NCBI RefSeq assembly: GCF_038397745.1
Contig: NZ_CP151636.1
Coordinates: forward strand, 2,170,001-2,234,000
DNA from: Microbacterium sp. LWH11-1.2
GTDB lineage: Bacteria; Actinomycetota; Actinomycetes; Actinomycetales; Microbacteriaceae
Reading direction: 5' to 3'
Length of the DNA stretch: 64,000 bases
Below the pieces are notes generated by a model. That model was given only the letters and a program-made list of their open reading frames with translations. It did not search any database and was not told where the DNA came from. Shown in pieces: positions 8,283 to 60,897 of the stretch (its first letter is position 1; each line of letters starts with the position of its first letter). A program made the position numbers and the translations under genes.

Positions 8283-9125
8283 TCAGGCCGAGGTGACGGC
8301 GGCGCGGGCACGTGGCGGCCAGGGCACGAGCATCGAGGTGGTGCGCCGGTACTCCGCATAGGCGGGATACTTGCCCGCTGTGATGGACTCGGTGAAGATC
8401 GTCGATCCGATGAACAGCACGGTGAGCAGGGCAGGACCGATGATGGTCGGGTTCAGCGCTCCGCCCAGGATGCCGGCGCCCCCGGCCACCGCGGCCGTCG
8501 CGCCGATGGCGTAGAACGCCCACCACTGCGCCTGCTCGAAGAAGAAGTTCGGGTGACGGCTGTAGCGGAACAGGCCGTCGGTCGCGAAGCCGGGAGCGAG
8601 CGTGCCGCCGGCATTCTTCTTGCGCTGGTGGAAGCGCCACTGCTGCTGGTCGGCGACGGTCTCACCCACGAGGAACCCCAGGAACGCGGCCACGAAGAGC
8701 GCGTCCCACCCGGTGAGGCCGGAGGGGTTCTGCGCGGCGACGGCGGCGGGGAGCGTGATCAGCACCAGCAGCGTCATCTGGTAGCCGATGATGAACAGCA
8801 CGTTGAAGACCTGGAACTGCCACGGCTTCATCCGCTTCCGCAGGATGGCCCACCGGTAGTCCTCCATGCCCGTGTACCCGCCCTTGCGGGCGAAGTTGAA
8901 GGTCAGACGTACGCCCCACAGGGTGGCGAGCACCCCCATCAGCACCACGCGCGCCGAGCCGTCGCCCGCGGCGAAGGCCCCGCCGACGAAGATCCACACG
9001 TACACGACCGGAACGATCGACCAGGCGCGATCCACCCAGGACGTGTCACGGGTGATCAGCGAGAGCGCCCAGCAGGCGAGACCGGCGATCGCGGCGACGA
9101 TGATGACGATCAGCAGGGCATCCAT
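8283..9125 (-). CDS. DUF1295 membrane protein (steroid 5-alpha-reductase fold)
   Basis: A 280-residue protein with about six membrane segments and the DUF1295 signatures WGVRLTFNFARKGGY, DYRW and, near the C-terminus, LFRYSRHPNFFFEQAQWW and GKYPAYAEYRR, which resemble NADPH-binding regions of isoprenylcysteine methyltransferases and steroid reductases. The substrate is unknown. The ATG is 7 nt after TAGCAT (9132-9137 on this strand), indicating a leaderless transcript. It converges with lldD, with only 12 nt between the stops. Confidence 0.88.
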   Translation of the reverse strand: MDALLIVIIVAAIAGLACWALSLITRDTSWVDRAWSIVPVVYVWIFVGGAFAAGDGSARVVLMGVLATLWGVRLTFNFARKGGYTGMEDYRWAILRKRMKPWQFQVFNVLFIIGYQMTLLVLITLPAAVAAQNPSGLTGWDALFVAAFLGFLVGETVADQQQWRFHQRKKNAGGTLAPGFATDGLFRYSRHPNFFFEQAQWWAFYAIGATAAVAGGAGILGGALNPTIIGPALLTVLFIGSTIFTESITAGKYPAYAEYRRTTSMLVPWPPRARAAVTSA

Positions 9126-9163
9126 GACGCCATGCTAGATCCCCGTCGCGGATCGGCGGCGAT

Positions 9164-9925
9164 TCAGAGCGTCGGGAGGAGCGCGTCGAGCCGGTCGGCG
9201 GTGTCTTCCCAGCCCTCGACCGACACGGACGGCACGCCGATCGCGAGCACCGGGTAGTCGTTGCCGCCCTCGTCGAGGCGGTCGCCGTAGAAGAGCATGG
9301 CGGACAGGGGGATGCCGGTGTGCTCGGCGAGCCGCCGCATGCCGAACGCCTTGTCGATGCCCGCCTGCGTGATGTCGATCGAGGTCGACCCGCCGGAGCG
9401 CACCTCGAGCCCGGGCAGCCGTGCGCTGACGGCGTCACGCAGCAGGGCGCGCTTGGAGCCCGTCGGGTCCCACGCGTGCTTCGCCGCGCGCGGGGCGCGC
9501 TGGCCGAGGGCCGAGAAGGTGATCTGCGAACCTCGGTCCTCGAGGATCTCGCCCCAGGGCTCTGTCTCCCACAGCCCGAGGCGTTCGGCCTCCTCGCGGA
9601 GCGCGGTCAATGCGGCGGTCTTCTCGGCGTCGCTGAGGTCGTGCGCGTACACGGGAGTGAAGTCGGTGCCGTCGTGCCGAAGGTACCGCGTGCCGCAGGT
9701 CGGCAGCAGGTGCAGGCGCGCGAGGTCGGCGGCATCCGCGTCGCCGAGCCGGGCGATCACCTGCGTGCGGAACTGCGCCTCGTTGCCGCCCGAGATGATC
9801 GCGACATCGACGGAGCGCAGCAGCGCCCGGAGGAGGTCGGCGATGCGCTGGTCGATCAGGCCCTTGGACGGAGCGAGCGTGTCGTCGAGGTCGAAGGCGA
9901 CGAGTGCGGGAGCGGGAGCGGTCAT
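9164..9925 (-). CDS. HAD-IIB family hydrolase (phosphomannomutase-like)
   Basis: A 253-residue Cof/PMM-type phosphatase with motif I FDLDDTLAPS (nucleophile Asp12, acid Asp14), motif II ISGGN, a basic Lys in the middle and motif III FYGDRLDEGGNDYPV. Members act on sugar phosphates or, in eukaryotes, interconvert mannose phosphates. The true start is ATG 9925, overlapping the VanZ stop (ATGA). A longer upstream reading is only an open-frame extension across the VanZ gene and the tRNA. Confidence 0.9.
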   Translation of the reverse strand: MTAPAPALVAFDLDDTLAPSKGLIDQRIADLLRALLRSVDVAIISGGNEAQFRTQVIARLGDADAADLARLHLLPTCGTRYLRHDGTDFTPVYAHDLSDAEKTAALTALREEAERLGLWETEPWGEILEDRGSQITFSALGQRAPRAAKHAWDPTGSKRALLRDAVSARLPGLEVRSGGSTSIDITQAGIDKAFGMRRLAEHTGIPLSAMLFYGDRLDEGGNDYPVLAIGVPSVSVEGWEDTADRLDALLPTL

Positions 9926-31411: not shown

Positions 31412-31419
31412 TTGCCTAA
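31404..31419. promoter_or_regulatory. ArsR operator overlapping the start codon
   Basis: TTAGGCA-TT-TGCCTAA is a perfect inverted repeat with a 2-nt centre, spanning the arsR ATG and predicted transcription start. Size and position fit an ArsR/SmtB-type autoregulatory operator. Confidence 0.65.
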
Positions 31420-31937
31420 CTGTATGACTCGGGGACGGAGGTGCGCAAGGGGTCGTTCATCGCGAGTGAGCGCCAGTTCTCTCCCATCCGCTCGTAGGTC
31501 GCGATCGCGTGGCAGTTCCGACAGCGCACGTCGCACTTCTCGACCTCGGCAGCCACGACGGCGATGCTGAAGCCGTTCCGCACCAGCTGCATGACGCCGT
31601 CCCGCTTCTCGCTCCCGGGGCGATGGTCGAAATCGAGGACTCGGAGATCTGCTTCACCGCAATCGGCGCACGGGTGATCCCGCAGATACTCGCAGACGAA
31701 CGCGATGCTCGCTCGCTTCTGGGCGTTCGTGCGTTCTCGGATCACGGCGACGTGATGCTCCCGATTCCGGCGATAGTACTCGCGCGACGACGTCCGATTG
31801 CACTCTCGGCAGACTTCCTGCCGTCCGTCCGCGCGAGAGGACTTCCGATTGAACGCGGTCAGCGGCTTGATCGCCCGGCACGAGCCGCAGCGCTTCTCCG
31901 ATTCATCCGGTGCGGATGACGGCAGCGCGTCGTGCAT
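31416..31937 (-). CDS. HNH-type zinc-ribbon protein
   Basis: A 173-residue protein with two zinc-binding modules. The first is C17xxC20...C43xxC46 (KRCGSC; EVCRECN). The second, C90xxC93...C139xxC142-H143 with D104-H105 between (LDFDHRPGS; CRNCHA), has the order of an HNH endonuclease core. Between them is a highly basic helix (SREYYRRNREHH). ATG 31937 is chosen over a longer form that would run into the tRNA. It lies 84 nt downstream of the intron-bearing tRNA-Lys on the same strand. It may be a nuclease or only a DNA/RNA-binding ribbon. Confidence 0.8.
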   Translation of the reverse strand: MHDALPSSAPDESEKRCGSCRAIKPLTAFNRKSSRADGRQEVCRECNRTSSREYYRRNREHHVAVIRERTNAQKRASIAFVCEYLRDHPCADCGEADLRVLDFDHRPGSEKRDGVMQLVRNGFSIAVVAAEVEKCDVRCRNCHAIATYERMGENWRSLAMNDPLRTSVPESYS

Positions 31938-32020
31938 GTCGGCCCCCCGCTCTCTCGCTGAGGGGCACGATATCCCGACCGTGCGACATGACTGCTCGTC
32001 GCGCTCGGGATCAGACGGGG

Positions 32021-32313
32021 TGGGCCCTGTGGGGATCGAACCCACAACCCGCGGATTAACTTGCCACTTCGGCTTTCGCCGCCGCCGTCTCCGGCGTTCG
32101 TGGTCTGGACTGTCCCTTCACCGTGGCTCTCGCCGTAGGTGCCACCCGTCCAGTCTCTACACCTTCCGGACCGCTGGTCCGGCTTGGCTCGGGATTGCCA
32201 ACTGGTTTCCCAGGAAGGGTTCCCCGACTTTGAGTGGTGTCATCCCCGGAGTTTCCTCCGAGGCGCTCCTATTTTGTTGAAGTCCGCTGCTCTGCCAATT
32301 GAGCTAAAGGCCC
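32021..32313 (-). tRNA. tRNA-Lys (anticodon TTT) interrupted by a group I intron
   Basis: The two exons, 32313-32280 (34 nt) and 32059-32021 (39 nt), join to an ideal 73-nt tRNA. The acceptor is GGGCCTT/AGGGCCC, the anticodon stem GCGGA/TCCGC, the loop CTTTTAA, and the T-arm GTGGG-TTCGATC-CCCAC. The anticodon is UUU (Lys AAA/AAG). The intron splits it between U34 and U35. CCA is not encoded. TAGACT (32322-32327 on this strand) is a plausible -10, placing the transcript start just before the tRNA. Without splicing the product cannot be a functional tRNA. Confidence 0.94.
32060..32279 (-). ncRNA. Group I self-splicing intron (IC3-like) in tRNA-Lys
   Basis: A 220-nt intron beginning after a U (U34) and ending in G (32060), as group I chemistry requires. 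The conserved core is clear: Q/P4-P6 GGCAATCCCGAGCCAAGC (32199-32182), R GTGTAGAGACTGGACGGG (32162-32145) and S AAGGGACAGTCCAG (32118-32105). These differ from the Azoarcus tRNA-Ile intron, as I remember it, by few bases. P7 pairs GACUG with CAGUC where Azoarcus has GACUA/UAGUC, a compensatory change. A guide GAG near 32268 can pair with the exon end CUU through a G-U wobble. P2 is CGGAG-GAAA-CTCCG. No open reading frame lies inside. Confidence 0.92.
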
Positions 32314-32335
32314 GTCCGACAAGTCTAGTGCGCAC

Positions 32336-32380
32336 AGAAGGGGCCGCCGGTGAACACCATCACCGGCGGCCCCTTCTCCT
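32336..32380 (-). terminator. Terminator of the fasciclin gene
   Basis: AGAAGGGGCCGCCGGTG (32336-32352) pairs perfectly with CACCGGCGGCCCCTTCT (32361-32377), a 17-bp stem with an 8-nt loop. It separates the fasciclin gene from the tRNA-Lys gene on the same strand. Confidence 0.85.
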
Positions 32381-32453
32381 TCTCACGTTCCTCCCCCGAG
32401 ACGAGAGAAGGTCGCTTGCCGGGAGATCCCCACCCGGCAGGTCGTGTCCCTGA

Positions 32454-33110
32454 TTACATCGGGGGCATCAGGACCGTGTCGATCAGGTACACGGTCGCGT
32501 TGGCGGTCTGGACGCCACCGCAGATGACGGTCGAAGTTCCGTTGACCATCAGGTCGTCACCGCTGCCGGTGACCTCGAGGTCGGCGCCCTGCACGGTGGT
32601 GTGCATGCCGGCGATCTCGTCCGGCGCGATCTGGCCGGGGACCACGTGGTACGTCAGGATCGAGCTCAGCAGTGCGCTGTCGGTCTTGAGCGTCTCGATG
32701 GTGGCGGGGTCGATCTTCGCGAAGGCGTCATCCACCGGTGCGAAGACGGTGAACTCGTCGCCGTTGAGCGTGTCGACGAGGTTCACGTCGGGGTTGAGCT
32801 GACCGCTCACCGCTGCGACGAGCGTCTTGAGCAGCGGGTTGTTGGAGGCGGCCACGGCGACCGGGTCCTTCGACATGCCCTCGACCGATCCGGCACCGTC
32901 CGGGACGGCCTCGGCGTAGGCGGAGCAACCGGCTCCGACGAGGTTGGCGGCCGGGTCCATCGCCTCGGTCGTGGGCTCAGCCGACTCCGACGTCGTCGGC
33001 TCCGACGACTCCTCGGCGGGCGCTGTGCCGGTCGAACACGCGGAGAGCAGGAATGCTCCGGCGAGCGTCAGGGTGAGTGCTGCGGTGACCTTCTTCTTGG
33101 TGCTGAACAT
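32454..33110 (-). CDS. Fasciclin-domain lipoprotein (MPT83-like)
   Basis: A 218-residue secreted protein with lipobox LSAC (Cys25), a Ser/Glu/Thr-rich linker (30-50) and one FAS1 domain ([82 protein letters not shown]). FAS1 lipoproteins mediate adhesion; the mycobacterial relatives MPT70/MPT83 are controlled by SigK. GAAGGAG (33117-33123) precedes the ATG. A SigK-like promoter lies at 33163-33189, and the neighbouring divergent operon encodes SigK- and RskA-like proteins. Confidence 0.94.
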
Positions 33111-33162
33111 CTCGAGCTCCTTCAGAAACTTCAGCCACGGCCTCTCCGTGGCGTCGACATCT

Positions 33163-33189
33163 GTTCGGAGCCCCGTCGGTATCGGATGG
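33163..33189 (-). promoter_or_regulatory. SigK-type promoter of the fasciclin gene
   Basis: On the minus strand CCATCC (33189-33184) is separated by 15 nt from CCGAAC (33168-33163). Mycobacterial SigK promoters are described, as I recall, as CCATCC, 16-17 nt, CCGAAT. The element would start a ~45-nt leader ending at the fasciclin ATG. Confidence 0.6.
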
Positions 33190-33308
33190 GAGAAATCTCA
33201 GAATCGATCGGGTCCCGTGCCTCGATCCGCAGAATCACGGGAGAAATTCCCTCACGATCGGGTGACGGCTGCACGGGAACACGGGGGAGATGCGGCATGC
33301 TTGGAGGG

Positions 33309-60664: not shown

Positions 60665-60897
60665 TGTCATTTCTCCTTCACCGGCAGGTACGTGCCGGAC
60701 GATCCGTTGTGATGGAAGTGGCGGAACAGGCCGCCATGACCCGTCTTTGGGTCGGGATCAGTATGACACGAACCGTGGCACCTGGGTATTTCTCAGCCTG
60801 GCTGGTTAACATCGAACCTGGCCGCGCAACGCGGCGATCGTCGCTCCGAGCGATGGTCGGGGCCAACCCGGACCCCCTCAGACTTTCAAGAGGAACG

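Follow-up and report, generated by a model that had tools for sequence, protein, structure and literature searches.

The window analyzed here is a 64,000-nucleotide stretch (positions 2,170,001–2,234,000) of a Microbacterium genome assembled as a single contig of 4,223,098 bases. Its minus strand carries a tRNA-Lys(UUU) gene in two pieces, of 34 and 39 nt, which give a 73-nt tRNA when joined; the intron that separates them lies between U34 and U35, and has C as its first base and G as its last (Table 1). A gene for a free-standing HNH endonuclease follows on the same strand, 83 bp past the tRNA 3′ end, in a reading frame that is open from a GTG at 32045. On the other side lies a fasciclin-domain protein gene, which adjoins an intronless tRNA-Lys in relatives. 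Further along the window, an msiK RNA motif was identified at 60667–60723 of the minus strand (62.2 bits).

Table 1. Features of the split tRNA-Lys(UUU) locus, in window coordinates.
Feature	Position	Strand	Evidence or remark
tRNA-Lys(UUU) 5′ exon, nt 1–34	32313–32280	minus	Sequence; ARAGORN with introns allowed; ends C32 U33 U34
Group I intron, 220 nt	32279–32060	minus	Empty site in genome G106; RF00028 E=1e-5 (below gathering score); covariation in 38 homologues
tRNA-Lys(UUU) 3′ exon, nt 35–73	32059–32021	minus	Sequence; empty site in G106; ARAGORN with introns allowed
P1: exon C32–U34 and first intron base with GGAG (32269–32266)	32266–32282	minus	Pairs invariant in 38/38
P2 hairpin	32244–32263	minus	5/8 pairs change on both sides
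P3 (32237–32232 with 32147–32142), around P4–P6	32142–32237	minus	1/6 pairs changed on both sides, in Daredevil
P7 (32155–32151 with 32112–32108), around P8, crosses P3	32108–32155	minus	
P9 and two side hairpins, up to immediately before the 3′ splice site	32064–32103	minus	
Free-standing HNH endonuclease gene	31416–31937	minus	PHROG 2255, E=2.4e-33; ATG at 31937 likely
Fasciclin-domain protein gene	32454–33110	minus	PF02469, E=2.6e-27; native neighbor, synteny anchor

The same-genus genome G106 provides the empty site. Window positions 32019–32059 align with 8948–8988 of its stretch L084, and window positions 32280–33191 with 8989–9892, with no base extra or missing, and neither intron end can slide; because these exon-plus-flank alignments abut exactly, the intron boundaries are set independently of any model. 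ARAGORN misses the gene at default settings, and reports tRNA-Lys(ttt) when introns are allowed or when the window exons are joined by script, the joined exons giving a full cloverleaf. Forty-five other tRNA matches were typed in the genome; the only other Lys gene has the anticodon CUU, and no second intact tRNA-Lys(UUU) was found on the single contig. A tRNA-Lys(CUU) cannot read AAA under standard decoding rules, and decoding of AAA in this genome should therefore depend on removal of the intron. The first-pass annotation had read the two exons, the 220-nt intron between U34 and U35 and the dependence of AAA decoding on splicing from the letters alone, and all three agree with the sequence, the ARAGORN result, the empty site and the tRNA inventory.

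It had also named the insert a group I intron, which a covariance model should recognize. The Rfam model RF00028 does match over its full length (model positions 1–253), with an E value of 1.0e-5 when the genome is searched and of 1.4e-5 with a 1.4-kb stretch, but the score of 30.6 bits does not reach the gathering score of 50 bits, which is a curation threshold and not a biochemical property. In the same search, four of 14 control genomes matched and two passed the gathering score. I do not take the low score as a refutation, because of the E value and because of the covariation described below.

The proposed structure, comprising the tRNA and helices P1–P9, has 81 of 81 pairs standard in the window sequence. 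It was compared with an alignment (A2) of 38 distinct genes, namely 37 of the 38 bacterial short-intron genes, omitting the divergent alphaproteobacterial L180, and the gene of phage Daredevil. Across these homologues 98.7% of 3,073 cells pair, a value that falls to 48% when partners are slid by one column, and none of 500 shuffles came up to any of the measures. Both sides change in 23 pairs, 17 of them intronic and located in P2, P3, P5, P6, P7, P8 and P9. Covariation thus supports the P3–P8 core with its P3/P7 pseudoknot, with P4 invariant. One P7 pair is G-C in 37 of the 38 genes and A-U in Daredevil, the remaining four being invariant, while the both-side changes of P9 (4 of 12 pairs) all lie within the side hairpins. 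P1, P4, the outer P9 helix and most pairs of P3 and P7 do not vary, and covariation is therefore no test of them. The P1 U34-G wobble at the 5′ splice site is present in all 38 homologues.

The fold signal is not due to chance. Together with the empty site, the P1 wobble and the terminal G, the covariation supports the group I identity of the intron, as had been proposed, and I consider it highly probable that the sole tRNA-Lys(UUU) gene of this genome contains a functional group I intron, whose precursor is predicted to be self-splicing. In 29 of the 38 aligned genes the tRNA-Lys is of the native-like form, in which U27 and C43 are mismatched where the anticodon stem begins; the same letters are found in most of the standard tRNA-Lys genes read.

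Each of 247 sampled Microbacterium genomes was searched in four ways: for the window intron (type A), for a second intron (type B), for a recoded intronless tRNA-Lys, and for the standard arm CGGACTTTTAATCCG. Type A is present in 21 genomes, a count that leaves out seven further short matches, type B in 15, the recoded gene in 12 and the standard arm in 193. A non-standard tRNA-Lys(UUU) is thus found in 48 of the 247 genomes, the standard arm is absent from 46 of these 48, and no genome among the 247 has two of the three non-standard forms. G300 and G363 were considered as carriers of both a standard and an intron tRNA-Lys, and rejected, as the standard arm of both belongs to half a gene, located at the junction of an insertion. 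None of the forms was detected in eight genomes, seven of which are 44–88% complete, the eighth being the lysogen G503. Full standard genes were read at 34 loci: 33 are intact, and one is the half gene of G363.

The exon arm CGGACTT/TTAATCCG, divided at the intron, is kept in 21/21 type A and 15/15 type B genes, and all 12 intronless replacements have the recoded arm ACCGGCTTTTAACCGGT. The exons are of native type in 15 of the 21 type A genes and foreign-looking in six, the window gene among them; in type B, all 15 are foreign-looking. G391 and G393 (L265 and L264) carry a tRNA-Lys with a recoded-form body (88%), the standard arm and no intron, and are counted as standard. The two introns represent separate lineages, which occupy one site in the Microbacteriaceae and are well separated in the tree; they also differ in length, 214–220 nt for type A in the bacterial set and 245–269 nt for type B.

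Beyond the genus, a pattern scan for the intron 3′ core followed by the Lys 3′ exon, over a contig collection of 84,980 species, returned 61 stretches. In 54 of these, the tRNA-Lys exons and an intron after U34 could be read; they come from Microbacterium, Agromyces, Nesterenkonia, Phytoactinopolyspora and other Actinomycetota, and from a few proteobacterial, gemmatimonadote and bacteroidete MAGs. The remaining loci were set aside, six from gammaproteobacterial MAGs (L176, L195, L196, L213, L223, L225) with a tmRNA-like 3′ end, and one flavobacterial. In IMG/VR the scan returned 14 stretches, including Daredevil, and eight further contigs, some of them near-duplicates, hold a tRNA-Lys gene with a 185–204-nt intron, mostly with other tRNA genes nearby. 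According to a 2014 review, all phage introns observed by then were in protein-coding genes (PMC3984707).

Searches of 299 Microbacteriaceae genomes gave a narrower picture. RF00028 identified two of the 299, and a BLAST view with a type A query was discarded: among the matches listed, only G000 and G258 were full, with G099 in two pieces. As type B introns are too divergent for a type A query, the larger counts given here are taken from the genus searches and the pattern scan. Two arrangements seen in the course of the scan differ from the single split gene of the window: Nesterenkonia alkaliphila F10 has an intron-split tRNA-Lys(UUU) on each of two contigs (L185 and L191), and a Rhizobiales MAG (L200) has two tandem tRNA-Lys 5′ halves, 313 bp apart, followed by one intron and 3′ exon.

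In an rpoB tree built from 77 genomes (31 with the standard arm, 45 of the 48 non-standard, and G503), parsimony requires at least 23 changes of replacement type (shuffled-label mean 40) and at least 20 changes of HNH state (shuffled-label mean 24). The HNH state thus tracks the host tree little better than shuffled labels, and the replacement type more so. Horizontal transfer, which the first-pass annotation had suggested, is supported by these repeated state changes inside Microbacterium, and by the relatives found in Daredevil, Nesterenkonia, Phytoactinopolyspora and MAGs of other phyla.

The HNH gene has no Pfam match above cut-off, and comparison to solved structures gave one weak match only, to Hpy99I (E=0.19). 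Its FDH and NCH motifs, with the zinc-binding and HNH residues, are conserved in its relatives, and the gene is under purifying selection, with a median dN/dS of 0.185 (23 stop-free sequences, of whose 253 pairs 234 were usable). Matches at E≤1e-8 are present in 41 of the 247 genomes; those in 32 genomes, with identity of at least 57%, are referred to as orthologues, and nine paralogues of 33–46% were set aside. Nine of the 32 orthologue matches are partial or have an internal stop. All 32 fall within the 48 non-standard genomes (15 type A, nine type B, eight recoded), and none in the 191 other genomes with the standard arm (Fisher p=2.5e-25, uncorrected for phylogeny), where the nine distant paralogues do coexist with it. 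An orthologue is absent, by the cut used, from 16 of the 48, three of which (G344, G384, G466) have HNH fragments near the tRNA. At the loci read, little distance separates the HNH gene from the altered tRNA-Lys; the two share a strand in type A and are mostly divergent in type B and recoded genomes, and the HNH clades mix the tRNA-Lys partner types. Since the same clade occurs beside recoded tRNAs and beside the second intron lineage, the constant partner is the altered tRNA gene, and not this intron.

At E≤1e-20, the HNH was identified in 13 of the 299 Microbacteriaceae genomes, three of them Microbacterium. Twelve HNH stretches outside Microbacterium were inspected. Two of these (L388, L390) are beside a recoded tRNA-Lys by ARAGORN, and L389 is likewise by eye; eight are near tRNA-Arg(UCU). 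One counterexample was found, in another Microbacteriaceae genus, where G280 has a 48%-identical HNH 166 bp from a tRNA-Lys with the standard arm. Among phage records, 113 match the HNH, with a tRNA gene under the match in 21 of the 60 listed; in SpeedDemon the HNH relative is 46 bp from the tRNA of the phage, and gp51 of Daredevil is a relative (36.6%). The nuclease gene beside tRNA genes, with HNH relatives in phage tRNA arrays, is reminiscent of the T4 SegB-type free-standing homing endonucleases (PMC2988022). However, SegB is a phage-borne GIY-YIG enzyme, whereas here a chromosomal HNH is tied to the replacement of an essential host tRNA. At L392–L399, from other Microbacteriaceae genera, the HNH relatives are 39–44% identical, and the nearby tRNA-Arg(UCU) genes have anticodon arms unlike the one in the window genome.

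Three genomes have an inserted element that appears to have disrupted the native tRNA-Lys gene and carries a rescue tRNA. In G503 the native 5′ half runs into foreign DNA (L308), the 3′ half neighbors a tyrosine integrase (L309; PF00589, E=3.5e-19), and at a distance of ∼1.3 kb there is an intronless tRNA-Lys(UUU) that is foreign and has the arm CTGACTTTTAATCAG. In G300 the insertion is near nt 26, and the native 5′ and 3′ halves are ∼22 kb apart, the former next to the fasciclin gene, the latter on the PfpI/CGNR side. The element between them encodes two tyrosine recombinases and a DUF6262 protein, a set that I take to be Tn554-like, and a type B intron tRNA-Lys, which is the only Lys(UUU) form that these searches found in that genome. 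The same gene set recurs in G363, along with a type B intron tRNA-Lys and the native 3′ half; the native 5′ half of this genome was not found. Three-gene elements of the Tn554-like kind, with their own tRNA-Lys, were thus located in tRNA-Lys(UUU) at L290 3758–7708 and L291 4910–8818. Relatives of the three element recombinase sets were detected at none of the 61 contig loci.

A similar arrangement exists in phages. Daredevil, a Gordonia phage, is described in a published survey as making clear plaques, as integrating at tRNA-Lys-TTT without rebuilding it and as encoding no tRNA of its own, although a figure legend of the same survey names tRNA-Ile2 instead (PMC10865867). I identified beside its integrase an unannotated tRNA-Lys(UUU) gene, split by a type A-like intron (L080 4998–5308; record 42131–41821) and 77.7% identical to the window gene over 88%. 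The attP core CGGACTTTTAATCCGC (L080 4829–4844), which is the tRNA-Lys arm, lies between the integrase and this gene, 153 bp from the latter; the exons are identical to the core, and only the intron differs. From its sequence, this gene appears to contradict the published absence of a tRNA in Daredevil. Because the plaques are clear, the rescue may work poorly under the conditions used.

Five phages with related integrases were examined, and all have an intronless tRNA at the same place, just upstream of int and on the other strand: tRNA-Met(CAT), which is probably Ile2, in Bantam, DatBoi and SpeedDemon, and tRNA-Lys in BrutonGaster and Cain. The rescue arm of BrutonGaster is recoded (GCGGTCTTTTAAACCGC), and the rescue tRNA of Cain shares its inner arm GACTTTTAATC with attP, from which it differs in the outer stem only. 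These arrangements resemble tRNA-dependent lysogeny (PMC10865867), in that the host tRNA-Lys(UUU) is apparently disrupted by an element that brings a replacement, and the position of the tRNA beside int is shared by Daredevil and the five phages. The tRNA on the element is of the same isotype in G503 (recoded), in G300 and G363 (type B intron), and in Daredevil (intron). Unlike in the published cases, the rescue tRNA can here be split by a predicted ribozyme, and it occurs also with Tn554-like elements, and as cellular alleles with no recognized integrase. The window gene belongs to the last group: no integrase was recognized in the region examined, and I have not filed it as tRNA-dependent lysogeny, as there is neither a recognized integrase nor a split native gene.

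What the first-pass annotation says of the intron itself is supported, but it had overlooked the HNH gene, both other replacement forms and the setting among mobile elements, and these lead to a different view of the probable purpose of the intron. Bacterial group I introns are usually treated as neutral or selfish. I think it rather likely that this one keeps an essential tRNA while removing from the DNA a contiguous site of HNH nucleases and integrases. The split gene would be one of several rescue alleles of tRNA-Lys(UUU), spread with mobile elements whose target in the standard gene is the anticodon arm or its vicinity, such as the adjacent HNH, prophages with site-specific integrases that disrupt the tRNA of the host, and the Tn554-like elements. 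A rescue allele would have to yield an identical tRNA while lacking the contiguous site CGGACTTTTAATCCG, and two escape routes are conceivable, in which the arm is either recoded, or split by an intron that is removed from the RNA only; in the latter case the precursor would splice itself to give the tRNA reading AAA. Recoding and splitting are read as two ways of losing one DNA site, because the 48 replaced genomes show one or the other, and never both. The agent selecting for masking may be the HNH, an integrase, or both; the cleavage of the standard gene by the HNH and the protection by the intron are both putative.

The masking hypothesis is supported by the status of the split gene as sole gene, by the repeated replacement, by the linkage of the HNH to altered genes and its absence from Microbacterium genomes with the standard one, and by the broken native genes beside rescue tRNAs. 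Several observations speak against it, namely the G280 counterexample, the 16 of 48 genomes with no HNH by the cut used, the nine orthologue matches that are partial or interrupted, the paralogues coexisting with a standard arm, the lack of a recognized integrase in the window region examined, the HNH state that barely tracks the host tree, the 34 loci to which the reading of full standard genes extends, the clear plaques of Daredevil, the inner arm of Cain, and G391 and G393, where a foreign-looking gene would have neither protection, and which fit the idea poorly.

A further proposal, to which I give only tentative credence, is that the locus is a natural cleave-and-rescue element, in which the HNH would destroy the standard tRNA-Lys(UUU) of relatives and spread with its linked rescue tRNA, the intron acting as camouflage. 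The engineered Cleave-and-Rescue gene drives (PMC7951863) likewise pair a nuclease with a copy of an essential gene that is closely linked to it and resists cleavage. The present system would differ in being natural and bacterial, with a rescue by intron or recoding, and with a cleavage that is putative. The HNH genes near tRNA-Arg(UCU) possibly represent the same strategy on another tRNA; if this is true, they would, with the HNH relatives beside the rescue tRNA of SpeedDemon and beside many phage tRNAs, point to a general strategy.

Alternatively, the intron may be an ordinary selfish or neutral one, moved by phage-borne transfer and homing with the HNH as its trans-acting endonuclease, and with nothing hidden. 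This would account for the conservation of fold and site and for the HNH adjoining many copies, and ‘collaborative homing’ is a known partnership of group I introns with free-standing endonucleases (PMC2988022). I nevertheless consider it doubtful, as the same HNH clade is found beside intronless recoded tRNA-Lys and the second intron lineage, and as intron and recoding behave as alternatives, with two of the three forms together in 0 of 247 genomes. It could also be that prophages and Tn554-like elements select for split or recoded genes purely as immunity of the integration site, the HNH being a passenger from phage tRNA arrays. G503, G300, G363, Daredevil and BrutonGaster are all consistent with this, as are the HNH homologues common beside phage tRNA genes, but the HNH evolves under purifying selection, element recombinase relatives were found in none of the 61 contig loci, and the HNH orthologues of the genus were found with no intact standard gene; I therefore regard it as quite improbable. 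Finally, that the split gene is a decaying pseudogene or an assembly artefact, with AAA read by something else, is suggested by the sub-gathering Rfam score and the miss by default ARAGORN, but is exceedingly improbable given the single contig with no other Lys(UUU) found, the full cloverleaf, the covariation among 38 homologues and the presence of the split gene in independent assemblies.

Masking of a DNA target inside an essential gene would be a benefit of a bacterial group I intron that can be put to the test. It would also correct the published case of Daredevil and account for the ‘missing’ tRNA-Lys genes of annotated genomes, and the engineered cleave-and-rescue drives would have a natural counterpart. 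Because related species alternate between split, recoded and standard alleles, the idea is directly testable in existing strains and phages.

Bacterial tRNA group I introns are known in tRNA-Leu(UAA), fMet, Ile and Arg. The intron described here shares their features (PMC3984707, PMC8450103), being small and ORF-less, located in the anticodon loop, and composed of P1–P9 with a terminal G. It differs from them in its host, a tRNA-Lys(UUU) of Actinomycetota, in that the exon arm equals an integrase target, and in being interchangeable with recoding. A search of the open-licence literature in PubMed Central revealed no report of this intron; a ‘group I intron’ of 22–49 nt mentioned for Gloeocapsa tRNA-Lys (PMC5733544) was judged too short to be one.

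Relatives in tRNA-Leu(UAA) were also observed on mobile DNA. In the huge phage LR756511 (L083 2750–3160), a tRNA-Leu(UAA)-like 3′ exon is found behind a group I intron core, which by eye appears 3′ of an HNH reading frame. At least 80% of the query is covered at one place in 1,253 of 72,556 plasmid records. The enteric plasmid pCTX-M3 (L081 5988–6286) has a tRNA-Leu(UAA) gene that lacks annotation, contains a group I intron and aligns to the query at ∼74%; similar plasmids also carry such a gene (two plasmids read). On pCTX-M3 it is located near aac(3)-IId and an AAA-ATPase gene, which I take to be tmrB.
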